Under the pieces are notes generated by a model. That model had not been told where the DNA came from. It saw nothing but the letters and a program-made list of their open reading frames with translations, and searched no databases. A stretch of 34,149 nucleotides of DNA from a virus. The position numbers and the translations under genes are program-made. The stretch lies in the IMG/VR virus record IMGVR_UViG_3300032238_001228, positions 1 through 34,149 of that record, one strand, 5' to 3'. Positions 2-34,096 of the stretch are shown piece after piece. The stretch's first letter is position 1. Each line of letters starts with the position of its first letter.

Positions 2-460
2 TTATTTCTTGCCCTTCTTTTTATTCTTTTTTGCTTCTGCTCTACAATAAGGACAATCTTTACAATCAGCAATATGTGTGATTTTTAAAGTATATATGTT
101 TTGTTTTTTTCCTTCATCAATATAAGCAGCTAAAGAACATACAAACAATTCAACATCGCTTTCATTGTTCGGATTATAAACTGACATATCGTTATGGAAT
201 ACTTGTGTAATAAATCTGTTGCTATCAAACTCTACTAAACAATCAGCATAAAAATCTGTGAATTCTTTTAGTAAATAAGTTTCTAATGTAATTATGCTTG
301 TATCTGTTTCAAAGTCAAAATTATAGTGGAAAGTATCTATAACTTCACCATCATTACGCCAATCAATTTCCTCACCTAAAGACTTAACAATCTTTACTAC
401 TTCTATTTCTAATTCCTGCGTTTTCATTACACCAGGCATTTTGTTCATTTTAATACTCAT
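2..460 (-). CDS. Orphan 152-aa protein with Cys-rich, Lys-rich tail
   Basis: No family recognised. The frame is open upstream to 532, but that extension is encoded by the promoter itself (residues CNKWYNNS are the TGT-AAT-AAG-TGG-TAT-AAT stretch), so the start is the ATG at 460, preceded by an AGAAAGAG ribosome binding site. The body is mildly acidic and aromatic-rich, like the small proteins at 30-34 kb. The last 25 residues carry a CxxCxxC cluster (CKDCPYC) followed by a run of lysines, which could bind metal or nucleic acid; this is inference. It has its own promoter and resembles the right-flank cassettes in organisation. The stop codon lies at bases 2-4, so the gene is complete. Confidence 0.75.
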   Translation of the reverse strand: MSIKMNKMPGVMKTQELEIEVVKIVKSLGEEIDWRNDGEVIDTFHYNFDFETDTSIITLETYLLKEFTDFYADCLVEFDSNRFITQVFHNDMSVYNPNNESDVELFVCSLAAYIDEGKKQNIYTLKITHIADCKDCPYCRAEAKKNKKKGKK

Positions 461-496: not shown

Positions 497-515
497 ATTA
501 TACCACTTATTACAA
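497..515 (-). promoter_or_regulatory. Promoter of the 2-460 gene (TTGT-N9-TATAAT family)
   Basis: Reading the minus strand: TTGT at 515-512, nine bases ending AGTGG, then TATAAT at 502-497. TGG-TATAAT is an extended -10. No good -35 is present. The TTGT-N9 spacing is shared with most other promoters of the window, and a 22-base stretch around this one is identical to 33341-33362. Confidence 0.75.
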
Positions 516-750
516 CTAAACAGTACAGTCATTATAGAAATATTTATTTTATTTTTAAGAAGAAATATCCAGCCCCCAATTTTTATATATGTATGAGAAG
601 CAAGATATATAGTAAAATAAAAATAAGAGGCAATTTAGGCGTTTTTATAATGCAGTAAAGCAAAGACATTAGAAGTGTGTAATAATGCCGTTATTCGCAT
701 TGTTTTGAGCATAAAAATCAGATGTTAAATTATAGGAAGAGGCTGGATAA

Positions 751-1077: not shown

Positions 1078-1109
1078 AGAGGGACTTTTTAGGTCCCTCT
1101 TTTTATTTT
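1078..1109 (+). terminator. Hairpin terminator, U-tract on the plus strand
   Basis: Stem AGAGGGAC (1078-1085) with GTCCCTCT (1093-1100), then TTTTTATTTT on the plus strand. On the minus strand the hairpin follows the stop of the 1108 gene, but no U-tract follows it there, only GCTTCATACATA. It is therefore better as an end for plus-strand transcription of the repeat region, or a 3' stabiliser for the minus gene. Confidence 0.65.
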
Positions 1110-1413
1110 AATCCCACATAAGGATTTCATCATCTTCTATAGCTTGGAAGAAGAAATTATTTAAAGCCATGTAATGTTGGAAATCTTTATGTTTTTCATT
1201 TTCTTTTAACCACAAGCATAGTTGTATGAAGCAATATCTAATTCCATCTTGATTTAAAAAAGAAATTTGTTCTGCATAAAGGAAGTAATTTTTTAAATTA
1301 GTTTTATCTACATTTGGAATATCATAACTTGTTCTAAATATTCCGTTTGTTCCATCAAGAGTATATTCTAATTCTCTTTTGTATCTTTTAAAGTTTGTTA
1401 ATTCTAAACTCAT
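1108..1413 (-). CDS. Orphan 101-aa protein
   Basis: Not recognised. The frame extends upstream to 1467, but that ATG lies inside the promoter's -35 (TTGCAT), so the start is ATG 1413 with AGAGG eleven bases upstream. The product (MSLELTNFKRYKRELEYTLDG...) is mixed alpha/beta in appearance, rich in aromatic residues, and has no signal peptide or membrane segment. It is a single-gene transcription unit with its own promoter, like the right-flank genes, and the downstream DNA carries the TGAAGCA repeat. Confidence 0.7.
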   Translation of the reverse strand: MSLELTNFKRYKRELEYTLDGTNGIFRTSYDIPNVDKTNLKNYFLYAEQISFLNQDGIRYCFIQLCLWLKENEKHKDFQHYMALNNFFFQAIEDDEILMWD

Positions 1414-1719: not shown

Positions 1720-1733
1720 CATTTATGTAGAAG

Positions 1734-1752
1734 TTGTTATTTGTGGTATAAT
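1734..1752 (+). promoter_or_regulatory. Main promoter of the plus operon (TTGT-N9-TATAAT family)
   Basis: TTGT at 1734-1737, nine bases ending TGTGG, TATAAT at 1747-1752. Expected start of transcription is about 1759-1760, leaving a short leader with GAGGTG before ATG 1773. Confidence 0.8.
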
Positions 1753-2703: not shown

Positions 2704-2732
2704 TTGTATTTTTTGTTAGATAGTGGTATAAT
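2704..2732 (+). promoter_or_regulatory. Internal promoter before the 2763 gene
   Basis: TTGTAT (2704-2709), 17-base spacer ending AGTGG, TATAAT (2727-2732). It also carries an internal TTGT at 2713-2716, ten bases before the -10, so it belongs to the same family as the promoter at 1734-1752 with one extra base. It begins at the stop codon of the preceding gene. Confidence 0.8.
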
Positions 2733-3798: not shown

Positions 3799-4165
3799 GA
3801 GTCATATACAAGTAGAGGTTTTTGACTGGATAAGAGAGAATAAAGAATCTTATCCAGTTCTTAAACTTATTCATCATTATCCATCATCATTTTTTGGTGT
3901 AAATTATGGTGTTATTGTTTGGTTAAAGAAGCTTGGTTGGCTTAAAGGTATTCCTGATATTTTTATTCCTGTAGCTCGTGGAGGATACTCTGGATTTTAT
4001 ATAGAGATGAAAACTGCTAAAGGCAAGCTATCACCAGAGCAAAAGGAATTTTTTGAGATGATTAACTTTTATTCAGAAGTTCCTTTTAAAACTGAAGTAT
4101 GCAGACGAAGTGATGAGGCTATAAGGTCAATAAAAAATTACTTGGAGATTACTGAAGATGGATGA
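3782..4165 (+). CDS. VRR-NUC domain nuclease
   Basis: A 127-aa stand-alone VRR-NUC protein, a PD-(D/E)xK nuclease family that in phages is small and thought to act on branched or recombining DNA. Diagnostic features: N-terminal ESHIQVEVFDWI, GIPDIFIPVARGG in the middle (catalytic Asp of GxPD), then GFYIEMKTAKGKLSPEQ with the E-x-K pair. No ATG is available ahead of the domain; the likely start is TTG 3782, overlapping the HNH gene by 17 bases, with a weak AGG upstream. It overlaps the next gene by 8 bases, so the four genes are translationally packed. Confidence 0.88.
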   Translation: MPKQVESHIQVEVFDWIRENKESYPVLKLIHHYPSSFFGVNYGVIVWLKKLGWLKGIPDIFIPVARGGYSGFYIEMKTAKGKLSPEQKEFFEMINFYSEVPFKTEVCRRSDEAIRSIKNYLEITEDG

Positions 4166-4385
4166 GCAAGAAGAAGAAGAAGATGGTAAGCGTGTATTTG
4201 ATATTTTGCCTATGGTTAGAGTTTATTTATCTGCATCTACTATAACAGGTGATCAATTAGAGGTAGATGAACTTAAAGCATGGATAAGTCAAAAAGGTGT
4301 CAAAGAAACAATTTTAAAGTTATTGGACGATGGATTAATAAATGTATATCTTACTTGTTTTGATGCTTGCGACAGACTTTATTAA
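4158..4385 (+). CDS. Small acidic protein, 75 aa, unknown
   Basis: Not recognised. It begins with an acidic run (MDEQEEEEDGKR) and overlaps the VRR-NUC stop. GGAG lies about ten bases upstream. The rest could be a small helical domain (VDELKAWISQKGVKETILKLLDDGLI resembles a winged-helix fold, tentative). A promoter-like sequence (4367-4395) overlaps its 3' end and a terminator follows. Confidence 0.6.
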   Translation: MDEQEEEEDGKRVFDILPMVRVYLSASTITGDQLEVDELKAWISQKGVKETILKLLDDGLINVYLTCFDACDRLY

Positions 4386-4717: not shown

Positions 4718-4993
4718 GTGGTAAATTACGATATGGAAAATAAAATGATGACTGAAGAGCAGATAGCAGAAGAACTGTCTGGTGAAGTTTTAAATGATGC
4801 AATCTTTGAAATGTTGCAAGGTGATGATCAAATCTTTTTTGAATATTTTATTGAAGGCATGAGTGAAGAAGACCTTATGCTGAAGTTTAATATTTCGCAA
4901 GAAGAATATGATAAAAAGATTGATAACTTTAGAGGTGTATGGCAAAAGATTTTAGATGAGAAATTACAGGATTTAAAATTATGCAGCGAGTAA
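4718..4993 (+). CDS. Small acidic protein, 91 aa, possible HTH
   Basis: Not recognised with certainty. GTG 4718 directly follows the previous stop and has AGGA at a suitable distance; ATG 4733 is an alternative giving 86 aa. The segment FIEGMSEEDLMLKFNISQEEYDKKIDNFR has the look of a sigma region-4-like helix-turn-helix (loop-helix-turn-helix with NIS at the turn), but the match is by eye only. It overlaps the next gene by 13 bases. Confidence 0.6.
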   Translation: MVNYDMENKMMTEEQIAEELSGEVLNDAIFEMLQGDDQIFFEYFIEGMSEEDLMLKFNISQEEYDKKIDNFRGVWQKILDEKLQDLKLCSE

Positions 4994-5302: not shown

Positions 5303-5311
5303 TGGTATAAT
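5303..5311 (+). promoter_or_regulatory. Extended -10 promoter of the putative RNA
   Basis: TGG-TATAAT (TG at 5303-5304, TATAAT at 5306-5311) with no clear -35. The predicted start, 5317-5319, coincides with the first base of the closing stem of the RNA below. Confidence 0.7.
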
Positions 5312-5318
5312 AAATAAT

Positions 5319-5472
5319 GTAAGATCAAGACAGCAAACAGGACTAACTGGTATTTCTACCGGAAGATGAAAATGAGCAATACGATGATCTTACTTCTTTT
5401 GGTTCATACTCATCATCTGAAAAAAACTCCTTACTAACAAAAGAAAACCAGGCTTAAAAACCTGGTTTTTTT
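5319..5472 (+). ncRNA. Putative structured phage RNA, about 150 nt, with embedded 21-codon frame
   Basis: Promoter, closed structure and terminator are all present. GTAAGATCA at 5319-5327 pairs perfectly with TGATCTTAC at 5385-5393, enclosing a hairpin CTGGTA/TACCGG (5347-5352 with 5357-5362, loop TTTC). A terminator ends the RNA at 5444-5472. Inside it, ATG 5372 opens a 21-codon frame (MSNTMILLLLVHTHHLKKTPY, stop at 5437) with GGAAG six bases upstream; its first codons form part of the closing stem, so translation could be structure-controlled. It could be a small RNA, a short hydrophobic peptide gene, or both. No known RNA family was recognised. Confidence 0.55.
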
Positions 5473-5475: not shown

Positions 5476-5997
5476 TTAGTCCATATTTACAAAACCGCCG
5501 TAAATACCAATGTTAATCATTTTCCTGTTACGGTTATAAACACCATCACCTTCACGATTTACATTAGATTCATCTGAAGTATTACCTTCACAAGTTTTAA
5601 ATACTGAATTAACAGATCCAAAATTCTCGACAAATCCAACATGAGCAACTCTTCCTAATTCTTTAAAATAAAACAGTACTAAATCACCTTTTTTAGGCTT
5701 ATATTTACCAGCCTTAACTGTTTCTGCTGATACAAATCTATCGTGTTTTTTAGCCCAGTTTAAGACATCAGGAACATAACCACTTCTTGGATAATCTTCT
5801 AATTCTTCTCCAGCTTCATTGGCCGCTTTTAATAATCTAAAATATACGAAAGCGCAACACCAAGGCGCTGGAAATTCAATACCAACACTTTGTAAATATA
5901 ATTTGATAAAAGGAGACCAGTTTTCACTTTTCTCCTTTACACCTACATTTTCAAGAGCATCATCAGTTGCTCGTATTGCGATATCTCTATATTGCAT
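5476..5997 (-). CDS. CHAP-type peptidoglycan hydrolase (endolysin)
   Basis: A 173-aa single-domain protein of the CHAP (NlpC/P60-like cysteine amidase/peptidase) group that cleaves peptidoglycan for lysis or at DNA entry. Visible catalytic elements: APWCCAFVYF with Cys47 or Cys48 as nucleophile, RVAHVGFVE with His119, and TCEGNTS with the polar residue near Glu137/Asn139. There is no separate cell-wall-binding domain and no signal peptide, so export would need a holin. The start overlaps the stop of the preceding gene (TAATG). As the last gene of the tail operon it could be a lysin or a virion-associated hydrolase; position alone does not decide. Confidence 0.85.
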   Translation of the reverse strand: MQYRDIAIRATDDALENVGVKEKSENWSPFIKLYLQSVGIEFPAPWCCAFVYFRLLKAANEAGEELEDYPRSGYVPDVLNWAKKHDRFVSAETVKAGKYKPKKGDLVLFYFKELGRVAHVGFVENFGSVNSVFKTCEGNTSDESNVNREGDGVYNRNRKMINIGIYGGFVNMD

Positions 5998-14206: not shown

Positions 14207-14662
14207 TTATGCAACACCAAGTTTGATGGTCGCTTTTTCAGTCAAAACACCATCAATTTCAACACCAGTAGATACATTTGTAATAACACCTACATACTGT
14301 TGAACTGCTAATCCAGATGCTGTTCCACCAACTGGAGAATCTGGATCAAAACTAATTCTACAATACTTACCGATAGCATTTTGGAATACATATCCGTTAA
14401 AACCACCAGTAGCTACTGTAGCAGGATTGAGATACACTTCAATATCAATTTGACCAGATTGTCGTGTATTAAATGATTTTTCTTCAGTATCACAAATACC
14501 TGCTAAATCAACTTGATTAAATGTACGAGAAATACTTAAACTCTTTACGTTACAAGTAGTTGCTGATGCTGTGTAAGATGTTGTGTAAGTTGGAGTAAGT
14601 TGGTCTTGAGTTTGACCAACTTCAATCAACACAGAACTGTTATTAAATATTAACTTTGCCAT
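14207..14662 (-). CDS. Tail tube-like protein, copy 2
   Basis: A 151-aa paralogue of the neighbouring upstream gene. Both start MAKLIFNN, share TTCNVKSLSISRT, SFNTR, GQID and end in TEKATIKLG. Differences and indels are mainly in the middle (residues 80-115), where this copy has about ten extra residues. Position (before the chaperone) and size fit a major tail protein or tube-like protein that stacks around the tape measure. One of the two may be a tail-tube variant or an ornament; the sequence does not tell which is major. Confidence 0.75.
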   Translation of the reverse strand: MAKLIFNNSSVLIEVGQTQDQLTPTYTTSYTASATTCNVKSLSISRTFNQVDLAGICDTEEKSFNTRQSGQIDIEVYLNPATVATGGFNGYVFQNAIGKYCRISFDPDSPVGGTASGLAVQQYVGVITNVSTGVEIDGVLTEKATIKLGVA

Positions 14663-14670
14663 AATTTATC

Positions 14671-15093
14671 CTATGCAATTCCTAATTTGATTGTCGCTTT
14701 TTCGGTGATCGCTCCGTCAATTTCAACGCCAGAACTTACATTAGTAACTACGCCATAATAAGTTTGAGCAGTCATACCAGTTGGAGTAAAAGTAATTCTT
14801 ACATAATAACCAAGACGACCTTGGAATACATATCCACCAAATATTGCTTGGTTAAGATATACTTCAAGATCAATTTGACCAGTTGTACGAGTATTAAAAG
14901 ACTCTTCAGCAGTACTACATACACTTGCTAAATCAATCTGATTTACAGTTCTTGAAATGCTCAAGCTCTTCACATTACATGTAGTGTCAGAAGCAGCAAC
15001 AGTTACATCAGTATATGTAGGTGTAGTTTGGTTTTGAGCAGCAGCAGAAAAACCTATAGTTACTGTCTGGTTATTAAAAATTAATTTTGCCAT
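14671..15093 (-). CDS. Tail tube-like protein, copy 1
   Basis: A 140-aa paralogue of 14207-14662. Beta-rich, Thr-rich, compact, with conserved TTCNVKSLSISRT near residues 36-48 and a C-terminal EIDGAITEKATIKLGIA. It follows the tail terminator gene, the usual site of the major tail protein. The two copies are separated by eight bases and were probably created by tandem duplication, then diverged clearly at the protein level. Confidence 0.78.
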   Translation of the reverse strand: MAKLIFNNQTVTIGFSAAAQNQTTPTYTDVTVAASDTTCNVKSLSISRTVNQIDLASVCSTAEESFNTRTTGQIDLEVYLNQAIFGGYVFQGRLGYYVRITFTPTGMTAQTYYGVVTNVSSGVEIDGAITEKATIKLGIA

Positions 15094-26979: not shown

Positions 26980-28398
26980 CTAAACTGATAACCAACCACC
27001 TGTACGTTTCATATATAAAAAATTATATGCATCACTTAAGGCATCAATAACATCATCATGCTTACCATTAGGAAAACCTTTAAGCTCATTTAATGCAGTT
27101 GATACCCAATTTACTCCCTTTGGAAATACTACATTTCCACTTGCAACATAACTGGCAAAAGGAGCTGCTCTTGTTTCTTTACTTCCTGTTACTGGCAAAC
27201 TAATAAACTTAAATCCTGATAACATTCTTGCAAAATGATTCTTTTGACTCTTACCAGCTTGACCAGGATCTTGAGGAATAACTACTATTGTTCCCTTTGG
27301 ATCTAAATTTGCAGCTTCAGTAATACACCTATCACGTCTAAATGAATCATACTGACCTCTTATAATATCCAATACCCACATTCGATCATTGTCATCTATG
27401 CCAGCAAGAACTCCAACACTATAGTCACCACGCCCTTGTGATGATGCAAGGTCCCAAGCTCTAACCAATTTTTTAAATTTTACTGGAGGTTGGTTGTCAT
27501 ATAAGAGATTAGATAAATTAAAAAAGGAGCCCTCTTTTCCAGTTGGTCTTCCTTGATATAAACTATTCCAACCATAAAGACCCTGATTACTTACAAGAAC
27601 AGTTTTAATACGCTGAAAATCATCAAAACTGTAACGCTCTTTCCATAAAGGCTCATCTAATTCTCTGTTAAGTGGATCATTCTCTGGATCATCACATAAT
27701 GCTGGAAGATTTAATACAACCCATTTGCCTTCTTCAGATGCTATAGCTCTACTAATAACATCGTCCTCATGCCAACGAGTAGATACAATTACCATCCTTC
27801 CGCCAGGCTCTAATCTCGTATATAAGTCATCTGAAAACCAGTCAAATGCTTTATCACGATAAGTCTCTGACTCCGCCTCTTCTCTACTTTTAATTGGATC
27901 GTCAATAACAATTAATTTAAATCCAACACCAGTCGGAGGAGAGCCAACGCCACGAGCCATAAATGTTCCACCAGGCATTAAACTCCACTCATCCTGGGCT
28001 GCATTATCTTTTTGTAATATTTGACGCTCTTTTACTATAGTTCTTGCTTTTCTACTAAAACGTCTTGCAATACGCTCATTATAACCAGTAACAAGAACAT
28101 TATCCTTTTGATTGCGCTCAAAGAAATAAGCTGAAAATCTAACTGTTATTGTTTCTGTTTTTCCATGACGAGGTGGAAGACTAATACATAATCTTGTTAT
28201 CTCACCACTATCTACTTTTTGTAAATATTCAGATAATAATTTAATGTGTGGAGCATCATATTGCCATCCTTTAGGCAATGTATCCTTTAAATACTCCAAA
28301 AAAGAAAGGTTATCAGTCCTCTTCTTCGCTACTGTTGCTACGCTCTGCTTGTCCTGCTGCTTGGAGAAGTTGAACCGAGAAGTTGCTAATTTTGTCAT
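26980..28398 (-). CDS. terL: Terminase large subunit
   Basis: 472 aa. ATPase: Walker A-like PPRHGKT (75-81), GxxFMARGVGSPPTG (144-157), Walker B LIVIDDP (162-168), and the coupling motif MVIVSTRWHEDD (202-213). Nuclease (RNase H fold): RAWDLASS with Asp316, PQDPGQAGK with Asp377, and HDDVIDALSDA with Asp448/449. It packages the genome into the prohead and cuts concatemers. AGGA lies upstream of the ATG. Its start overlaps the small-subunit gene by 86 bases. The 'RHGKT' Walker A and 'GVGFKLIVIDDP' are typical of the Terminase_6 group. Confidence 0.95.
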   Translation of the reverse strand: MTKLATSRFNFSKQQDKQSVATVAKKRTDNLSFLEYLKDTLPKGWQYDAPHIKLLSEYLQKVDSGEITRLCISLPPRHGKTETITVRFSAYFFERNQKDNVLVTGYNERIARRFSRKARTIVKERQILQKDNAAQDEWSLMPGGTFMARGVGSPPTGVGFKLIVIDDPIKSREEAESETYRDKAFDWFSDDLYTRLEPGGRMVIVSTRWHEDDVISRAIASEEGKWVVLNLPALCDDPENDPLNRELDEPLWKERYSFDDFQRIKTVLVSNQGLYGWNSLYQGRPTGKEGSFFNLSNLLYDNQPPVKFKKLVRAWDLASSQGRGDYSVGVLAGIDDNDRMWVLDIIRGQYDSFRRDRCITEAANLDPKGTIVVIPQDPGQAGKSQKNHFARMLSGFKFISLPVTGSKETRAAPFASYVASGNVVFPKGVNWVSTALNELKGFPNGKHDDVIDALSDAYNFLYMKRTGGWLSV

Positions 28399-28702
28399 AT
28401 AATATTCCTAAACTGTTTGCGTTTTGTTCCTTACACCATTCTTCATTTTGCGCTGTTTTAACAATCTCATTCATAGCCTTACAGTTCTCAACTATCATAT
28501 TAGCTAAAACATCATCCAAGTTATACTTTTCTTGTTTCATTATCCATTTTCCTATCAAATTCTTCTTAAGTATATCTCTCTTACTCCATGCAAGACTCTC
28601 ATATACTTTACGCTTATCACAATCTAATAATTTTGCTACATCTTCAGTACTATAACCACCAAGTTTATAAAAATGTATTATAAAATCACGCTTATAATTC
28701 AT
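28313..28702 (-). CDS. terS: Terminase small subunit-like protein
   Basis: 129 aa, directly upstream of and overlapping the large subunit. The N-terminal helix-turn-helix (FYKLGGYSTEDVAKLLDCDKRKVYESLAWSK, 11-41) would bind the pac/cos site, and a helical mid-part (about 55-115) would oligomerise; the C-terminus is acidic (RSNSSEEED). Assignment by position, size and HTH, not by a diagnostic motif. Start overlaps the sigma-factor stop (ATGA). Confidence 0.75.
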   Translation of the reverse strand: MNYKRDFIIHFYKLGGYSTEDVAKLLDCDKRKVYESLAWSKRDILKKNLIGKWIMKQEKYNLDDVLANMIVENCKAMNEIVKTAQNEEWCKEQNANSLGILYDKISNFSVQLLQAAGQAERSNSSEEED

Positions 28703-29385
28703 AAATCTCTACTTATTATCTCTCTACACTGGTCTATAGCTTCATTATATAATCTATCAAAATCTCTTCTGCTTAATCCAAATTCACTCATAAGCTTTTT
28801 CTTACTTATTTTTTCACTATGCAAACCAAATAATCCACTCAAAATTCCAACTTTAACAGGCTCTAATTCATTAAAAATAAGGCTAAAATCAATGTTTTCT
28901 GGCTCTTTTTTATCTGCAACATCTAAACTTACTGAATCTATATTAATTACGCTTATATCACTGTTTTTAACTGCTTTTTCCAATACAATTAAACTTTTAT
29001 TTTCCTCTATAGAACACTCTTCCAATGTATCGTATTTTTCTATGAGCTTTAATGTATCTAAAATATGAACAGGTATTTTTATTAAATTAACATTTTTCTC
29101 AATATACCGCTTAACACCCTGCAAAATCCAATAATAAGCATAAGTAGTAAATTTAACGTCTTTTTCTATATCAAACTTATCATATGCAACTATAAAACCA
29201 ATTCTTGCTTCACTATATAAATCTTGCTCATCTACTTTGCAGTTTTCTATAAAATATTTGTATCTCCAAACAATTTTCCATAACAGAAGATTGTGTCTAT
29301 TCAAAAGTTCTTCTATCGCTTGATCTCTTGTGACGCTGGTTCGTAAATTTATGAGGCAGACTTCGCTTTTCCTTTTTACATTCAT
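28699..29385 (-). CDS. Phage sigma-70 family transcription factor
   Basis: 228 aa. Region 2 at about 30-97: NLLLWKIVWRY, DEQDLYSEARIGFIVAYDKF, KFTTYAYYWILQGVKRYIEK (compare the classic 'DLxQEGxxGLxxAxxKFD...FSTYAxWWIRQxIxR'), then IKIPVHI (103-108) opening region 3. Region 4 at about 180-225: GLFGLHSEKISKKKLMSEFGLSRRDFDRLYNEA. This redirects host RNA polymerase, plausibly to late promoters, but its target sites could not be identified; the TGG-TATAAT promoters look like host sigma-A sites. AGGAG lies eleven bases before ATG. The first 89 bases overlap the preceding gene out of frame. Confidence 0.88.
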   Translation of the reverse strand: MNVKRKSEVCLINLRTSVTRDQAIEELLNRHNLLLWKIVWRYKYFIENCKVDEQDLYSEARIGFIVAYDKFDIEKDVKFTTYAYYWILQGVKRYIEKNVNLIKIPVHILDTLKLIEKYDTLEECSIEENKSLIVLEKAVKNSDISVINIDSVSLDVADKKEPENIDFSLIFNELEPVKVGILSGLFGLHSEKISKKKLMSEFGLSRRDFDRLYNEAIDQCREIISRDL

Positions 29386-29689
29386 CTATAATTTTTCTCC
29401 TGTTCTCATAAGTGTAATCTAACAATTTTTTCAATTTCCAGTATTCTTTTCCAATTAAATCTGCCCAAACCCTTATATGATCAGAAGGAAACTTATAGGA
29501 TCCGTGTATAGCATCCTCAACATAATAAAAATGAACACCAATATGCTTTGCTATGGTATTTATTTGAATGCCGTTAGTAAAATTATAGTAGTGGTCTTCT
29601 TTTTGCAGTTTTTCCTCAATATATGGCCTTTTTTTCCATAGTTCTTTCTGGTTAAACTCACCAATAATAATCTCGTTAAAATCTTCCAT
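29297..29689 (-). CDS. Putative DNA-binding protein, 130 aa
   Basis: Not recognised as a family. GIQINTIAKHIGVHFYYVEDAI (about 40-61) looks like a helix-turn-helix, and the C-terminus is strongly basic (CKKEKRSLPHKFTNQRHKRSSDRR). First gene of the structural operon; no clear ribosome binding site. TATAAT (29713-29718) lies about 25 bases upstream without a convincing -35. A regulator of the operon or a packaging accessory are possible, from position only. Confidence 0.65.
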   Translation of the reverse strand: MEDFNEIIIGEFNQKELWKKRPYIEEKLQKEDHYYNFTNGIQINTIAKHIGVHFYYVEDAIHGSYKFPSDHIRVWADLIGKEYWKLKKLLDYTYENRRKIIDECKKEKRSLPHKFTNQRHKRSSDRRTFE

Positions 29690-29793: not shown

Positions 29794-29822
29794 AATAAGG
29801 GGCCCGTAGGCCCCTTATTTTT
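29794..29822. terminator. Strong GC hairpin after the 29824 gene
   Basis: Stem AATAAGGGGCC (29794-29804) with GGCCCCTTATT (29809-29819), loop CGTA. The minus strand reads CCCCTTATT then GCTATATG; the plus strand reads TTATTTTTC. Separates the cassette region from the structural operon. Confidence 0.7.
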
Positions 29823-29823
29823 C

Positions 29824-30210
29824 TTACAAGTTATCTATCAGGACATCAGGTACTTCATCATCAGTCAGAGCCTTATAATATGCAAGAAGTTCTTCTGCGT
29901 TCTTCAACATCTTCAAGCGGTCTTCTTGTGATACTGCTGTCTCAACCCACACCTTGTTATCTTCAATCCACTCATATGAGCCAGAATAAATCTCATCATC
30001 AAGCTTAAGTACTTCAACGGCATCTTCAAGCGCAAGTTCAACACTTACCAATACACGGCAGTCTTCAGCATCAAACCAACACTTATCACCTTCAGAGCCA
30101 GCGCATACCATCTGATAATATGCAAACTCCACACCGCAACCTTCACCAATCTTTGCTTCCAGAGCGGATAAGGATACTGTCCTTATCACCATCGTAGTTT
30201 CTTCAATCAT
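29824..30210 (-). CDS. Acidic orphan protein, 128 aa
   Basis: Not recognised. About 30 Asp/Glu against about 10 Lys/Arg (by eye). The frame is open back to 30261, but that part encodes the -10 region; ATG 30210 with AAGGA seven bases upstream is the start. The composition is uniform from end to end (DAEDCRVLVSVELALEDAVE...). Own promoter and terminator. Such small acidic early proteins sometimes mimic DNA or block host enzymes, but this is only a possibility here. Confidence 0.75.
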   Translation of the reverse strand: MIEETTMVIRTVSLSALEAKIGEGCGVEFAYYQMVCAGSEGDKCWFDAEDCRVLVSVELALEDAVEVLKLDDEIYSGSYEWIEDNKVWVETAVSQEDRLKMLKNAEELLAYYKALTDDEVPDVLIDNL

Positions 30211-30242
30211 CGTTTCTTCCTTCATACCATCAGGTACTCTGT

Positions 30243-30271
30243 ATAGTATCACCATAAACAACCTTATGCAA
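30243..30271 (-). promoter_or_regulatory. Promoter of the 29824 gene (TTGT family)
   Basis: TTGCAT (30271-30266), 17 bases containing AAGG-TTGT (TTGT 30261-30258), nine bases ending GTGA, TACTAT (30248-30243). Confidence 0.8.
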
Positions 30272-30281
30272 CCCTTGACAA

Positions 30282-30310
30282 AGAAAAAGGCCCCTATTTT
30301 TAGAGGCCTT
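30282..30310 (-). terminator. Terminator of the 30330 gene
   Basis: Stem AAGGCC/GGCCTT with inner CT/AG, then CCTTTTTCTTT on the minus strand. It directly precedes the promoter of the next cassette. Confidence 0.8.
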
Positions 30311-30329
30311 GTAGTAATGCGCCAGAGGT

Positions 30330-30566
30330 TTATAACACAGGAATGTTATAGAACGCTATTGCTTTGACGTGAGTCCAGATATCTTCAGCAGTCATCTTCT
30401 TCTTGAATAACCCGTTATACCAAGTATTCACCCACGCTTCGACGCTGTAGCAATCAAACATATTGCCGTGTCCATAAACAGCAAACTTATTGACTGACAC
30501 GCCACGCTTCTTCAGTTCTGCAACCACACGGCGAGCCTTAAGTTCAAGCAACAAACTCTTCATCAT
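30330..30566 (-). CDS. Basic orphan protein, 78 aa
   Basis: Not recognised. Unlike its neighbours it is basic at the N-terminus (SLLLELKARRVVAELKKRGVSVN) and aromatic in the second half (VEAWVNTWYNGLFKKK, DIWTHVKAIAFYNIPVL). AAAGG lies nine bases before ATG 30566; ATG 30575 overlaps that site, so is less likely. One gene per transcription unit, with its own promoter and terminator. Opposite charge to its neighbours makes a paired action conceivable, unproven. Confidence 0.7.
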   Translation of the reverse strand: MMKSLLLELKARRVVAELKKRGVSVNKFAVYGHGNMFDCYSVEAWVNTWYNGLFKKKMTAEDIWTHVKAIAFYNIPVL

Positions 30567-30589
30567 CGTACCCATCCTTTACTGTATCT

Positions 30590-30618
30590 ACTATACCATC
30601 ACTAACAACACACTGCAA
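30590..30618 (-). promoter_or_regulatory. Promoter of the 30330 gene (TTGT family)
   Basis: TTGCAG (30618-30613), 17-base spacer with TTGT at 30608-30605, nine bases ending ATGG, TATAGT (30595-30590). Confidence 0.8.
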
Positions 30619-30628
30619 GCCATCAAGC

Positions 30629-30656
30629 AAAAAAAAGAGGAAGTTTTACCTTCCTC
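30629..30656 (-). terminator. Terminator of the 30664 gene
   Basis: Stem GAGGAAG (30637-30643) with CTTCCTC (30650-30656), six-base loop, then eight T on the minus strand. Confidence 0.85.
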
Positions 30657-30663
30657 CTCTTTA

Positions 30664-31104
30664 TTAACCTTCTCTGTAGGTCATCGTTACAGTTCGCCAT
30701 CTTTTAGTATCTGGTTCAATAAGAAGGTCAAACAGTTCTTGCTCCCAGTTATACTCTTCAGACTCCAGTTCATTATCAAGGTCCTCTGCCAAGCAACGTA
30801 CAAAGGAATCAAGGTGGTAGAACGTGTATAGCCCATCACCAGAAGTAGCGGTAGCGTCACACCAGTTACCATCAGAAGCCCAGTCCTGTTTTGTGGCAAA
30901 TGTCGTGTTATACTGTAGGTTCAGGATAGATACAAGGAAGTTAGCCAGTTCGTTCTCTTCAATAAAGAAGTGGAAGTCACCATCCTTATCAACCCAGTAC
31001 TCAACCTCTGCTTCAAGGTCACGGTAGCCAATAACATACCGTGTTCCTTGCCAATCCGTCTCGCCTCTTTCAGGGCGGTCAAACAGTTCAATCTTTTCCA
31101 TCAT
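30664..31104 (-). CDS. Strongly acidic orphan protein, 147 aa
   Basis: Not recognised. By eye about 34 Asp/Glu to 12 Lys/Arg, the most negative of the cluster, and rich in Trp and Tyr (TDWQGTRYVIGYRDLEAEVEYWVDKDG...). The longest frame begins at 31143, where MYGIK is encoded by the promoter; the GGAGG six bases before ATG 31104 decides the start. A possible beta-rich fold with acidic helices at the end. DNA mimicry or protein inhibition would be the first things to test given the charge, but nothing in the sequence proves either. Confidence 0.75.
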   Translation of the reverse strand: MMEKIELFDRPERGETDWQGTRYVIGYRDLEAEVEYWVDKDGDFHFFIEENELANFLVSILNLQYNTTFATKQDWASDGNWCDATATSGDGLYTFYHLDSFVRCLAEDLDNELESEEYNWEQELFDLLIEPDTKRWRTVTMTYREG

Positions 31105-31129
31105 CAGTACCCTCCATAGGTACATCTCT

Positions 31130-31159
31130 TTTATACCATACATAACAACCTGATGTCAA
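31130..31159 (-). promoter_or_regulatory. Promoter of the 30664 gene (TTGT family)
   Basis: Consensus TTGACA (31159-31154), 18-base spacer with TTGT at 31148-31145, nine bases ending ATGG, TATAAA (31135-31130). The strongest -35 of the set. Confidence 0.85.
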
Positions 31160-31161
31160 GC

Positions 31162-31410
31162 CTATTTACGAATCCTGTTATAAACTTGTCCAACAAATGT
31201 TCCTGCATCATAAGCATCATCACGGCCCCACAAAATGTTCCATGATTCGTTTAGCATGGTTCTTAAGTCCTCGTCTGATTCTATTAAGAAGTGGTCAGTA
31301 AGTTCATCATCTTCATCAACTCTGGAATCATGTTCAATTCCGTTAATGTCCAACCATTTGCTAAACTTGTAGCCATCGTTATCAGTACATACCAAATAAA
31401 ATTCGTTCAT
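31162..31410 (-). CDS. Acidic orphan protein, 82 aa
   Basis: Not recognised. About 20 Asp/Glu to 8 Lys/Arg, rich in Asp runs (EHDSRVDEDDELTDHF...). AAGGAG seven bases before ATG 31410 sets the start (the longest frame starts at TTG 31440). No separate terminator is evident; its stop is just upstream of the next promoter. Upstream is a promoter-like TATACT, weak -35. Probably alpha/beta with a C-terminal helix (VGQVYNRIRK). Confidence 0.7.
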   Translation of the reverse strand: MNEFYLVCTDNDGYKFSKWLDINGIEHDSRVDEDDELTDHFLIESDEDLRTMLNESWNILWGRDDAYDAGTFVGQVYNRIRK

Positions 31411-31578
31411 CTTAATTCTCCTTAAATAATTCACTAACAATTCTATAGGTCCAATCTTATTTTTTAGTATAATTTTGTCCTACTACTATAGAATCATCTC
31501 TCACGTTTTTAAGATAAATTTAAATAAAATATATATATAAATACCCACCCAGCTGCATAAGAATTTAGAATTATATAT

Positions 31579-31640
31579 ATGTGTGTGTAAAGCAGTGAAG
31601 TAGCGTTAGAATTATCTTTTATGATCATGTGTGTAAAGCA
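31579..31640 (+). repeat. Right repeat cluster A (TGTAAAGCA / TGAAGTA)
   Basis: ATGTGTGTGTAAAGCAGTGAAG at 31579-31600 and ATGTGTGTAAAGCA at 31627-31640, in the region upstream of the 31162 gene and just beyond the terminator of the 31687 gene. Same orientation as all other copies. Confidence 0.75.
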
Positions 31641-31642
31641 AC

Positions 31643-31671
31643 AAAAAAGGGGCCTTTTGGGCCCCTTTTTT
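31643..31671. terminator. Bidirectional terminator of the 31687 gene
   Basis: Stem AAAAAAGGGGCC with GGCCCCTTTTTT (31643-31654 and 31660-31671). A U-run follows on both strands. On the minus strand the next bases are GTTGCTTTACACACATG, the repeat. Confidence 0.88.
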
Positions 31672-31686
31672 ATCTTTTTATGCGAG

Positions 31687-32019
31687 TTATGAACCTAAAC
31701 ATACATAAGTGTCAGTATCGCAATTTATAACTAATTCTCTACCTTGGTCATCTGGTTCTACGCAGTCCTTCAATGCTCTGTGATACGCAACATAAAGGAA
31801 CTCATACAAACTTACTAATGTGTCGTCAGCATCACCAAAACTCCAATCAAGGTCTAAAGAAAAGAAATATTCTTCCAATTCTTCTTTACATGGTAGATTC
31901 TTCCAGTCTAAATCTACTGCAACTTCAAGCAATTCATCCAAAACTATAGAAGGAGTGGTGGTTTTTCTTGTCTCCACATAACCACTCATCATCCAAACAT
32001 CACCGTTCTTTACAATCAT
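31687..32019 (-). CDS. Acidic orphan protein, 110 aa
   Basis: Not recognised. About 24 Asp/Glu to 8 Lys/Arg (net near -16). Characteristic DELLEVAVDLDWKNLPCKEELEEYFFSLDLDWSFGDADD stretch with aromatic and acidic residues mixed. GAGG precedes ATG 32022/32019; 32019 has the better spacing. Own promoter (TTGCAT/TATAGT) and terminator. Same architecture as its neighbours; a candidate host-interaction protein by location only. Confidence 0.75.
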   Translation of the reverse strand: MIVKNGDVWMMSGYVETRKTTTPSIVLDELLEVAVDLDWKNLPCKEELEEYFFSLDLDWSFGDADDTLVSLYEFLYVAYHRALKDCVEPDDQGRELVINCDTDTYVCLGS

Positions 32020-32039
32020 CATAAACCTCACTTGCTAAT

Positions 32040-32068
32040 ACTATACCACTACATACAACCTAATGCAA
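32040..32068 (-). promoter_or_regulatory. Promoter of the 31687 gene (TTGT family)
   Basis: TTGCAT (32068-32063), 17-base spacer with TAGG-TTGT (TTGT 32058-32055), nine bases ending AGTGG, TATAGT (32045-32040). Confidence 0.85.
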
Positions 32069-32092
32069 ACAATTTCATCAACAAACAACAAT

Positions 32093-32122
32093 AAAAAAGG
32101 GGGCCAGAAAGCCCCCTTTTTT
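32093..32122. terminator. Bidirectional terminator overlapping the stop of the 32121 gene
   Basis: AAAAAAGGGGGC (32093-32104) pairs with GCCCCCTTTTTT (32111-32122). Same design as those at 31643 and 33529, differing mostly in the loop. Confidence 0.88.
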
Positions 32123-32453
32123 ATAACACCAGTCCTTGTCTAACCAATCTATCTACTGTAATAACTTGGTTCTGGTGAATGTAGGTGAAGTAAAGTCTGT
32201 CTTCCATCTTACATAACTTTACAAACTCATCCAAATCAAAACCTGGAAGAAAATCTACACCAATTTGCTCATTATAGGCAACTAAACCATCTTCCACATT
32301 ATCATAATCAATACACCACTCAACGGTATCCATCAGGTCAGCATTGTAATAAAACCAACCTGAATAAAATGTCTCGCAAAAGGAAACATACTTCTCTTCA
32401 TCAACACTACCAAACGCTCTTTTGATAGCTTCCCGTAAATCATAAACTGTCAT
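32121..32453 (-). CDS. Acidic orphan protein, 110 aa
   Basis: Not recognised. About 21 Asp/Glu to 9 Lys/Arg, rich in Tyr/Phe (ETFYSGWFYYNADLMDTVEWCIDYD). The longest frame begins at 32510 in the promoter, but AAGGAG nine bases before ATG 32453 sets the start. Its leader sequence (32451-32468) is repeated exactly before the 33159 start. Own promoter and terminator. Confidence 0.75.
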   Translation of the reverse strand: MTVYDLREAIKRAFGSVDEEKYVSFCETFYSGWFYYNADLMDTVEWCIDYDNVEDGLVAYNEQIGVDFLPGFDLDEFVKLCKMEDRLYFTYIHQNQVITVDRLVRQGLVL

Positions 32454-32483
32454 CTTTATAGGCTCCTTGGTTCCTATGTCATT

Positions 32484-32512
32484 ATTATACCACAATCTAC
32501 CACCATACAAGC
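32484..32512 (-). promoter_or_regulatory. Promoter of the 32121 gene (variant)
   Basis: GCTTGT (32512-32507) at 17 bases, TGGT instead of TTGT at the spacer position, then nine bases ending TGTGG and TATAAT (32489-32484). Confidence 0.7.
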
Positions 32513-32614
32513 GAAAAACAGAAAAAATCTTGGCAAATTTGGATTTATAATATTTATTTTTTATTTATTAATATTTGTAGCTATGATCTTAAAAAAATAA
32601 ATTTATATATATAC

Positions 32615-32703
32615 ATGTGAAGCAGTGAAGCAAAAGAATTATATATATGTGAAGCAGTGAAGCAGGGATATTTTGTAAATATCCCTGCATGTGTGAAGCG
32701 GAG
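32615..32703 (+). repeat. Right repeat cluster B: tandem 18-bp TGAAGCA repeats
   Basis: ATGTGAAGCAGTGAAGCA is perfectly repeated at 32615-32632 and 32647-32664 (32-bp period), each after a TATATATA run. A third, partial copy (ATGTGTGAAGCGG) is at 32689-32701. The DNA just left of it (32520-32610) is extremely AT-rich. Each 18-mer is itself two GTGAAGCA units. Confidence 0.85.
32662..32688. terminator. Perfect 12-bp hairpin without U-tract after the 32704 gene
   Basis: GCAGGGATATTT (32662-32673) with AAATATCCCTGC (32677-32688), loop TGT, no U-run on either side; repeats flank it on both sides. Its position matches the terminators of neighbouring genes. Confidence 0.55.
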
Positions 32704-33159
32704 TTATTTTACTGATGCAATAACTCTCTTTTTATATTCTTCTAACTTCTTTTCATATGAGGCGATCTTTTTAAGTTCTTTTTCTGCTTTGTATTGCGGT
32801 GAGTTTATTAAGGTAAAATATTCTTTATCAATATCATTACCTTCAAAATAAGTAAAAATAAAGTCCAATTCTTCTTCAGATTTATCTTTGCCATAAATAT
32901 TCATAAAACAGTCAGATATTGGTTCGTGATATTTAACGCCCCTATATATTTCAACGCCATAAATATCTTCTTGAGCTGACAATAAACGTAAGGCATAAAT
33001 GTTTTCTTCGTTCATATCTTCTTTAGGTAGAACAAATTCGATATATGATTTGTTTTTAGTAATAATCACATCTTCATTACTAAACGCATTCTTAACTTCT
33101 TGCAAAACCTCTTCTGTACCGTGAATTCGTACAGTACCAACTTTCATATTCCACTTCAT
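32704..33159 (-). CDS. Orphan protein, 151 aa, helical C-terminus
   Basis: Not recognised. Slightly acidic overall with a basic, coiled-coil-like C-terminus (EKELKKIASYEKKLEEYKKRVIASVK). The N-terminal beta-rich part (MKVGTVRIHGTEEVLQEVKNAF, SYIEFVLPKEDM) could be a ferredoxin-like alpha/beta domain, tentative. AAGGAGCCTATAAAG leads to ATG 33159, the same leader as at 32453. Own promoter. Confidence 0.72.
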   Translation of the reverse strand: MKWNMKVGTVRIHGTEEVLQEVKNAFSNEDVIITKNKSYIEFVLPKEDMNEENIYALRLLSAQEDIYGVEIYRGVKYHEPISDCFMNIYGKDKSEEELDFIFTYFEGNDIDKEYFTLINSPQYKAEKELKKIASYEKKLEEYKKRVIASVK

Positions 33160-33188
33160 CTTTATAGGCTCCTTACACCCACATTCTT

Positions 33189-33217
33189 ATTATACCATAC
33201 TTTACAACCATACAAGC
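33189..33217 (-). promoter_or_regulatory. Promoter of the 32704 gene (TTGT family)
   Basis: GCTTGT (33217-33212), GG-TTGT (TTGT 33207-33204), nine bases ending ATGG, TATAAT (33194-33189). Confidence 0.8.
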
Positions 33218-33230
33218 AAAAAACAGAAAT

Positions 33231-33314
33231 ATTTTGCGTTTAAAGAAGATCTACCTTTATTTTAATAATTTTGGCCCCTTATTATGTATTTTTAGATTTT
33301 GCGTTTAAAGAAGA
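33231..33314 (+). repeat. 19-bp perfect direct repeat pair
   Basis: ATTTTGCGTTTAAAGAAGA at 33231-33249 and again at 33296-33314. The core GCGTTTAAAG also occurs at 1035-1044. The second copy is followed by a possible hairpin (AGAAGAAT/ATTCTTCT). Confidence 0.85.
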
Positions 33315-33343
33315 ATTATTGCCCGTTTATTCTTCTATACTTT

Positions 33344-33362
33344 ATTATACCACTTATTACAA
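33344..33362 (-). promoter_or_regulatory. Orphan promoter of the TTGT family
   Basis: TTGT (33362-33359), nine bases ending AGTGG, TATAAT (33349-33344); this block is identical to that at 497-515. No start codon or ribosome binding site follows before the next promoter; it is probably the remains of a lost cassette or starts an untranslated RNA. Confidence 0.7.
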
Positions 33363-33463
33363 CAAAAACATACATTAATATAGAAAAATGTGTGAATTTT
33401 TTAAGAAGGAAATAATTATATAAATATTGGCCCCCTTTTATTTAATTTTGTATTTATGCGCCT

Positions 33464-33523
33464 ATGTGAAGCAGAACGATCTTTTATGCATGTGTGAAGC
33501 TGTGTGTATGAAGCAGTGAAGGA
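33464..33523 (+). repeat. Right repeat cluster C (TGAAGCA)
   Basis: Copies at 33464-33473 (ATGTGAAGCA), about 33490-33500 (ATGTGTGAAGC) and 33506-33523 (GTATGAAGCAGTGAAGGA). They lie between the terminator of the 33572 gene and the orphan promoter. Confidence 0.78.
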
Positions 33524-33528
33524 ATACC

Positions 33529-33558
33529 AAAAAAGGGGGCTTTTAGGCCCCCTTTTTT
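33529..33558. terminator. Bidirectional terminator of the 33572 gene
   Basis: AAAAAAGGGGGC (33529-33540) with GCCCCCTTTTTT (33547-33558). Near-identical in stem to the hairpin at 32093-32122. Confidence 0.88.
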
Positions 33559-33571
33559 GTGTGTTTTAGAA

Positions 33572-33970
33572 TTACCATAGTTCGCCTATAGTTTTGTCTG
33601 TAAAGTAGTAATATGCATCTGTTTTAAAATGTTTTACTACTTCTACTATATCTGTAAAGCAAACAGTTCCATACTCTAAATAAACTCCATCAACTAAACC
33701 TTCAAAAGTAGCTGGCCCTAATTCATCACTTAAATACGAGCATACATACCACTCCCAGCCTATAGAAGGAACAGAAATTACAAACATAGGAATTTTTTTG
33801 CTTGTAGTTTCTTGGCAAATACATTTTTCATACATTTCTTCTGTCAATGTAGGTGGTGTAATATTTTCACTGTCAAAACTAAACAATGAATTAAAATTAT
33901 CTTTTATTGGTAGTGGATTTTTTGGATCACTTAAAACTACATCTACTAAACTCACACTGAAAACTTCCAT
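33572..33970 (-). CDS. Orphan protein, 132 aa
   Basis: Not recognised. Moderately acidic, rich in aromatic residues and Ser/Pro; Cys pair (KCICQE near 50). WEWYVCSYLSDELGPATFEG in the second half. AGGAG seven bases before ATG. Own promoter (TTGCTA/TAGAAT) and terminator. Right-most complete gene. Confidence 0.72.
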   Translation of the reverse strand: MEVFSVSLVDVVLSDPKNPLPIKDNFNSLFSFDSENITPPTLTEEMYEKCICQETTSKKIPMFVISVPSIGWEWYVCSYLSDELGPATFEGLVDGVYLEYGTVCFTDIVEVVKHFKTDAYYYFTDKTIGELW

Positions 33971-34000: not shown

Positions 34001-34029
34001 ATTCTAACATCTCTACAACATTATAGCAA
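34001..34029 (-). promoter_or_regulatory. Promoter of the 33572 gene
   Basis: TTGCTA (34029-34024), 17 bases with TTGT at 34018-34015 (eight, not nine, bases from the -10), TAGAAT (34006-34001). Confidence 0.65.
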
Positions 34030-34059: not shown

Positions 34060-34096
34060 TGAATAAAAAACACTTTACTGGTCAGTAAAGTGTTTT
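34060..34096 (-). terminator. Terminator of the gene entering from the right
   Basis: Perfect inverted repeat AAAACACTTTACTG (34067-34080) / CAGTAAAGTGTTTT (34083-34096), two-base loop, T-run on the minus strand (TTTTTTATTC). It implies a minus-strand gene ending near the window edge. Confidence 0.85.

Follow-up and report, generated by a model that had tools for sequence, protein, structure and literature searches.

Candidate early host-takeover array of small, self-contained and often acidic genes in an uncultured tailed phage

What is a phage likely to gain from a row of small, mutually unrelated ORFan genes, most of them carrying their own promoter and terminator? We addressed this question for IMG/VR virus record IMGVR_UViG_3300032238_001228, which was analysed as a complete record (34,149 bases, linear, 34% GC; hereafter the window). 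The row comprises eight minus-strand genes of 78-151 amino acids (aa) at positions 29824-33970 and, with two genes on the other flank of the window (2-460 and 1108-1413), amounts to ten cassettes. On balance we favor the reading that it is an early accessory array comparable to the host-takeover module of phage SPO1. The row would be early by its type of promoter, and the function of its proteins is read from the layout, in which self-contained, promoter-marked and apparently fast-changing small genes stand ahead of a sigma factor gene and the late operon. The sigma factor gene (28699-29385; Pfam Sigma70_r2, E 2e-11) lies downstream of the row on the same strand. The row thus belongs to a known kind of system, while its promoter motif and a one-orientation repeat, both previously undescribed, are parts for specialists to pursue.

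Gene starts were chosen as those with a ribosome-binding site, and these sites are strong in the cassettes (e.g. AAGGAG). The row consists of 29824..30210 (128 aa, net charge -20, an AGGA-type ribosome-binding site and a GC content at third codon positions, GC3, of about 0.4), 30330..30566 (78 aa, basic at about +6, GC3 about 0.5), 30664..31104 (146 aa, net -22, GC3 about 0.46), 31162..31410 (82 aa, net -12), 31687..32022 (111 aa, net -16), 32121..32453 (110 aa, net -12), 32704..33159 (151 aa, net -6) and 33572..33970 (132 aa, net -13), all of them ORFans. The leader of 32704, AAGGAGCCTATAAAG, is identical to that of 32121. The flank cassettes, also on the minus strand, encode proteins of 152 aa (2..460, net -7) and 101 aa (1108..1413, net -5). 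A preliminary description of this DNA had presented the eight row genes as each unrelated to the next, and all-against-all BLASTP bears this out, with no mutual similarity and a best E of 0.17. It had also assigned the two flank genes to the same design, which holds for the cassette layout but not for strong acidity.

Searches outside the window were equally negative. No relative was found when 50,697 phage records were searched by tblastn with all eight row proteins (one match at E 0.6 was ignored) or by IMG/VR scans with four acidic row proteins and the product of gene 1773. No cassette protein matched a family above threshold in PHROGs, Pfam, PADLOC or NCBIfam, and sub-threshold matches to CdiA_C (E 0.006) and Vac_ImportDeg (E 0.008) were taken as chance. 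Six row proteins used for a PDB sequence search gave E 0.24 or worse, Rfam returned no match, and phmmer gave no match to T7 proteins and none at E 0.05 to the open reading frames (ORFs) of SPO1 0-20 kb. AlphaFold2 single-sequence models of 30664..31104 and 32121..32453 reached a mean predicted local distance difference test (pLDDT) score of 44 and 39, respectively, which is too low to search for similar folds. The preliminary description had named homology to proteins of the virion or of replication as speaking against its own proposal, and none was seen.

The most distinctive property of the row is its promoters. A matrix scan of the genome revealed a shared promoter, GTTGT-N7-GGTATAaT, at nine sites scoring 29.9-38.3 bits. 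Eight of these were used to build the matrix, so that their own scores are inflated; the ninth, at 32489, lay outside the training set and still scored 33.2 bits. The next non-overlapping site reached 16 bits, and the best sites in five simulated genomes 9.9-17.2 bits. Six of the nine stand before cassette genes on the minus strand: 30590..30609 (site 30595, GTTGT-N7-GGTATAGT, 32.7 bits) before 30330, 31130..31149 (site 31135, 35.3 bits) before 30664, 32040..32059 (site 32045, 37.8 bits) before 31687, 32484..32503 (the site at 32489, where GGTGGT replaces GTTGT) before 32121, 33189..33208 (site 33194, 34.6 bits) before 32704, and 497..516 (site 502, 38.3 bits) before flank gene 2-460. Two others precede plus-strand genes, at 1733..1752 (site 1747, 33.3 bits) for the operon from 1773 and at 2713..2732 (29.9 bits) before 2763, and one on the minus strand (33344..33363, site 33349, 35.2 bits) is an orphan with no ORF before the next promoter. 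Weaker variants on the minus strand were noted, with the help of direct reading, before 29824 (30243..30262, 13.1 bits; TTGCAT-17-TACTAT with GGTTGT in the spacer) and before 33572 (34001..34029; TTGCTA-17-TAGAAT with GTTGT one base closer). Gene 1108 has TTGCAT-17-TAAGAT but no GTTGT block, and our promoter scans gave no convincing candidate for 31162.

The GTTGT block lies directly downstream of the -35 position and is conserved better than the -35 itself. No recognizable -35 is present at sites 502, 1747 and 33349; several sites combine a -35-like TTGCAT, TTGCAG or TTGACA at 17-18 bp with the extended -10 TGG. A generic sigma-70 scan of the region showed no excess (17 found vs 19.1 expected), and significance is thus confined to the specific shared motif. 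When the exact pattern of promoter plus ribosome-binding site was sought in IMG/VR, it gave six single matches, about the number expected by chance, with no genes in common. Strong sigma-70-type promoters scattered before many small early genes are also known from T4, whose early promoters combine -35, TGn and -10 (PMC2988021), and from a Kayvirus with 58 early promoters of sigma-70 type (PMC7698491); the row differs from both in the position of its GTTGT block and in the conservation of this block over the -35. A TGGTATAAT box was also noted on the plus strand at 5303-5324, where the plus-strand operon ends; it points into the endolysin gene antisense.

Terminator-like sites are likewise abundant in the region (9 vs 2.0 expected), and folding places a strong hairpin directly 3' of nine of the ten genes. 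On the minus strand these are found after 29824 (29794..29819, -17.8 kcal/mol), 30330 (30287..30310, -14.2 kcal/mol, T-rich tail), 30664 (30631..30662, -16.2 kcal/mol, T8 tail), 31687 (31640..31674, -21.7 kcal/mol), 32121 (32091..32124, about -18 kcal/mol), 32704 (32662..32688, a 12-bp hairpin of -16.0 kcal/mol with no clear T tract), 33572 (33528..33559, -20.9 kcal/mol) and 1108 (1078..1100, -12.3 kcal/mol), the hairpins after 29824, 32704 and 1108 being among those without a good T tract. The ninth (34067..34096, minus strand, -12.9 kcal/mol) would serve gene 2-460 if the contig ends are joined. The exception is 31162, which is not a clean single-gene unit because it has no terminator and the next promoter follows directly. 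The preliminary claim that nearly all genes of the row have their own promoter and terminator hairpin consequently stands for most of them: seven of the eight have a hairpin, five (30330, 30664, 31687, 32121 and 32704) have a strong shared promoter and two (29824 and 33572) a weaker variant, but 31162 has neither a hairpin nor a convincing promoter.

Five of the eight row proteins are strongly acidic, with net charges of -12 to -22 that were confirmed, as first described, when gene starts were called again. All five have -10 or less per 100 residues, and their charge density ranges from -11 to -16 per 100 residues. Among proteins of similar size from four other phages (T7 and three terminase-bearing phages, a convenience sample), 10 of 107 (∼9%) are equally acidic (binomial P 3e-4), as are 2 of 17 small proteins encoded elsewhere in this genome (P 9e-4); the cut-off of -10 per 100 residues was set after seeing the data, and the size of this excess is accordingly rough. 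In the first 20 kb of SPO1, seven of 31 small proteins are as acidic, and six of these seven fall within the host-takeover gene cluster. A salt-loving host as the source of the acidity was rejected since the structural proteins of this phage are near neutral.

The base composition of the cassettes also departs from that of the rest of the genome. GC3 is 0.16 in the structural genes vs 0.44 in cassettes 29824-31104 (P 3e-32), 0.33 in cassettes 31162-32453 (P 4e-12 vs structural genes) and 0.21 in the remainder of the row. The simplest reading of the codon positions suggests that the cassettes were acquired separately. Cassettes may have been lost as well. The gap 33160-33571 holds the orphan promoter at 33349, two GGCCCC terminator arms that lack a partner (33273, 33429) and the direct repeat TCTTCTTTAAACGCAAAAT of 19 bases, which together look like the remnants of lost cassettes, or like a small non-coding RNA.

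Among systems already described, the SPO1 host-takeover module comes closest; its genes are small and early, have strong promoters and ribosome-binding sites, and in eight of 26 cases slow host growth (PMC6873191). In both, small genes that are unrelated to one another cluster together, each equipped with a strong promoter and ribosome-binding site, and many of the products are acidic. One route by which such a product can act is illustrated by the acidic SPO1 protein Gp44, whose target is RNA polymerase (PMC8208478). The SPO1 genes, unlike those of the row, often form multi-gene operons, takeover is proven for them, and they belong to a 132-kb phage with terminal repeats; there is no sequence similarity between the two (phmmer, 0-20 kb), and the GTTGT motif was not found in that SPO1 region. 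Genes of this type commonly inhibit the host, since 25 of 66 non-structural genes tested in mycobacteriophage Adephagia were toxic or strongly inhibitory to host growth (PMC11373665). The ten small genes, mostly single-gene transcription units and most of them driven by the shared extended -10 promoter with its GTTGT block, would be read by host RNA polymerase as soon as the phage has entered. Each protein would then be made in a burst whose size depends on the promoter and ribosome-binding site of its gene. The proteins would act on host enzymes, the acidic ones most likely by binding basic or nucleic-acid-binding surfaces such as those of RNA polymerase, nucleases, and nucleoid or defence proteins, before the sigma factor switches transcription to the late operon. 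Self-contained units could be gained or lost without upsetting their neighbors, which would account for the presence of so many ORFans, the uneven GC3 and the apparent scars around 33160-33571. New inhibitors of bacterial enzymes and defences come in large part from rows of small early phage genes, and a promoter motif that marks such genes without homology could help to find more.

Several observations weigh against this reading. No homologue or fold is available for any cassette protein, and takeover is therefore argued from layout and charge. Strong acidity also occurs beyond the row (4718-4993, -16 in 91 aa; 4158-4385, -9 in 75 aa), one row member is basic, and 32704 and both flank genes are only mildly acidic. 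The raised GC3 may reflect codon selection for expression and not foreign origin; the capsid gene, at GC3 0.25, is without the rise that such selection would give. Alternatively, the row could be a mixture of accessory genes of the moron type that share no function (superinfection exclusion, metabolic tweaks, decayed genes) and whose products are acidic only incidentally, which we regard as the most credible of the alternatives, if still an unlikely one. Such a mixture would suit the unrelated proteins, the one basic and the mildly acidic members and the scars, and two features of morons are found here, namely a promoter and terminator of their own in most units and a deviating base composition (GC3 of 0.44 and 0.33 against 0.16, although 0.21 in the later cassettes). 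Against it, acidity is enriched (5 of 8), the strong promoters all belong to one family that the putative replication operon also uses, and morons are usually described in temperate phages, whereas neither an integrase nor a lysogeny module was found among the window proteins scanned. Somewhat less plausible still is the proposal that the acidic proteins are DNA mimics or other anti-defence proteins (Ocr-, ArdA- or Acr-like) directed against restriction, BREX, CRISPR or similar systems. Small size, high charge density and early-type promoters are shared with T7 Ocr (gp0.3) and ArdA, Ocr being the best-known example with -28 in 117 aa, and in SPO1 the early acidic protein Gp44 mimics DNA and targets RNA polymerase (PMC8208478). 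However, the row proteins have no detectable sequence similarity to Ocr or ArdA (no significant family match in Pfam, NCBIfam or PADLOC), their charge density is about two thirds or less of the -24 per 100 aa of Ocr, the family and phmmer searches described above were negative, and the two structural models are unusable for recognizing a DNA-like charge surface. Of the original suggestion of a host take-over or anti-defence locus, the takeover part thus remains reasonable in view of the layout and the parallel with the acidic cluster of SPO1, while anti-defence or DNA mimicry found no positive evidence.

Doubt may also be raised about the timing of expression and about the genes themselves. 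GTTGT-N7-GGTATAaT might be a class of middle promoter in which GTTGT is bound by an activator that the phage has produced beforehand, much as a MotA box takes the place of the -35 in T4 middle promoters (PMC2988021). We consider this about as doubtful as DNA mimicry: the strong conservation of GTTGT and the three sites without a recognizable -35 fit such logic, but the several sites with a -35-like element and an extended -10 have all that host RNA polymerase needs, an activator gene was not identified, and no other promoter class strong enough to come first was found. It is very improbable that the ORFs, in part or as a whole, are open by chance in DNA that does not code for protein. The other strand of this stretch does contain shadow ORFs of up to 113 aa, and the proteins lack homologues, but in most units promoter, ribosome-binding site, ORF and terminator are correctly ordered and spaced. 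The host-takeover array remains our preferred reading of the row.

The gaps between cassettes contain a further element, GCTT(C/T)A(C/T)(A/T) (GCTTYAYW), of which we counted 16 minus-strand copies in 3.4 kb of non-coding DNA and none on the opposite strand there; 0.9 copies are expected, and the maximum in 500 simulations was 5. All copies fall within gaps 461-1107, 31411-31686, 32454-32703 and 33160-33571, usually after the terminator and 100-570 bp before the next shared promoter. Ten lie between 31586 and 33514, in the gaps after 31687, 32704 and 33572, and six between 601 and 1077 in gap 461-1107, together with one variant at 601. The core resembles the T4 MotA box, and T4 middle promoters have a WWTGCTTYA box 12 ± 1 bp before the -10 (PMC2988021). 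A MotA-type promoter was nevertheless rejected because the spacing from GCTTYAYW to a -10 is not constant (any one gap is shared by at most 3 of 17 copies). A coding reading of ATGTATGAAGCA was also rejected, as many copies read ATG-TGA. The repeat pattern gave four single matches in IMG/VR. Within gap 461-1107, otherwise non-coding, a plus-strand ORF of 32 aa was noted at 751-849 (MKQDKVSKLFKISLGEYLLIKYLKERSEYEKN).

Two kinds of mycobacteriophage repeat are comparable. The SAS and ESAS repeats of cluster K likewise recur as regulatory sequences ahead of numerous unrelated small genes and almost always point the same way (PMC3203893), but SAS are start-codon-associated and partly accompanied by 17-bp inverted repeats, whereas here the repeated sequence is a promoter plus the separate GCTTYAYW element. 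Cluster A stoperators are, like GCTTYAYW, asymmetric and mostly in one orientation relative to transcription (PMC6550527); unlike them, GCTTYAYW is confined to cassette gaps after terminators, and no immunity repressor was found here. As a more speculative idea, to which we give little credence, the row might be a plug-in platform in which near-identical promoters, leaders and GGGGCC-type terminators serve as recombination handles for swapping early genes between phages, with the GCTTYAYW repeats taking part in the exchange or its silencing. In that event the acidic products would be a rotating stock of host- or defence-blocking proteins with new folds, and swapping by way of common promoters and terminators would reveal how phages renew their arsenal.

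Profile searches of the window proteins identified a terminase large subunit (26980-28398), an endolysin (5476-5997), two HNH endonucleases, portal, head protease, major capsid protein, tail terminator and neck proteins, and the phage is tailed, uncultured and strictly lytic in appearance. Its terminase is at most 40% identical to those of cultured phages. About 80 viral contigs (L003-L081) encode terminases 52-59% identical to it, and those whose composition was measured have a GC content of 51-57% vs 34% here, a large GC shift within the lineage. The sole close relative (L002, terminase 91% identical) is 8.7 kb long and stops short of the cassette region. A search for the host by scanning bacterial genomes with the terminase gave a single, distant match.

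Although the record contains no terminal overlap that would prove a circular join, the hairpin at 34067-34096 has no upstream gene on its strand unless the contig ends join, in which case it follows 2-460. Since this terminator fits only with joined ends, we infer a circularly permuted genome that the record covers completely or nearly so, and that the row would be one array of ten cassettes running from 1413 through the junction to 29824.

Some neighboring features deserve mention. Between the row and the sigma factor gene, 29297-29689 encodes a basic 130-aa protein with a helix-turn-helix-like stretch and no family match, which is a candidate for controlling the early/late switch. Three tandem 22-base repeats (TATGCGGAAAAATAATA...) occupy 1623-1688, directly ahead of the shared promoter of 1773-2702, which encodes a basic ORFan of 309 aa; the repeats and this gene may be an iteron origin and its initiator gene. 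Finally, two adjoining genes at 14207-15093 are 75% identical in DNA over 143 bases and probably represent a duplicated tail-tube-like protein.

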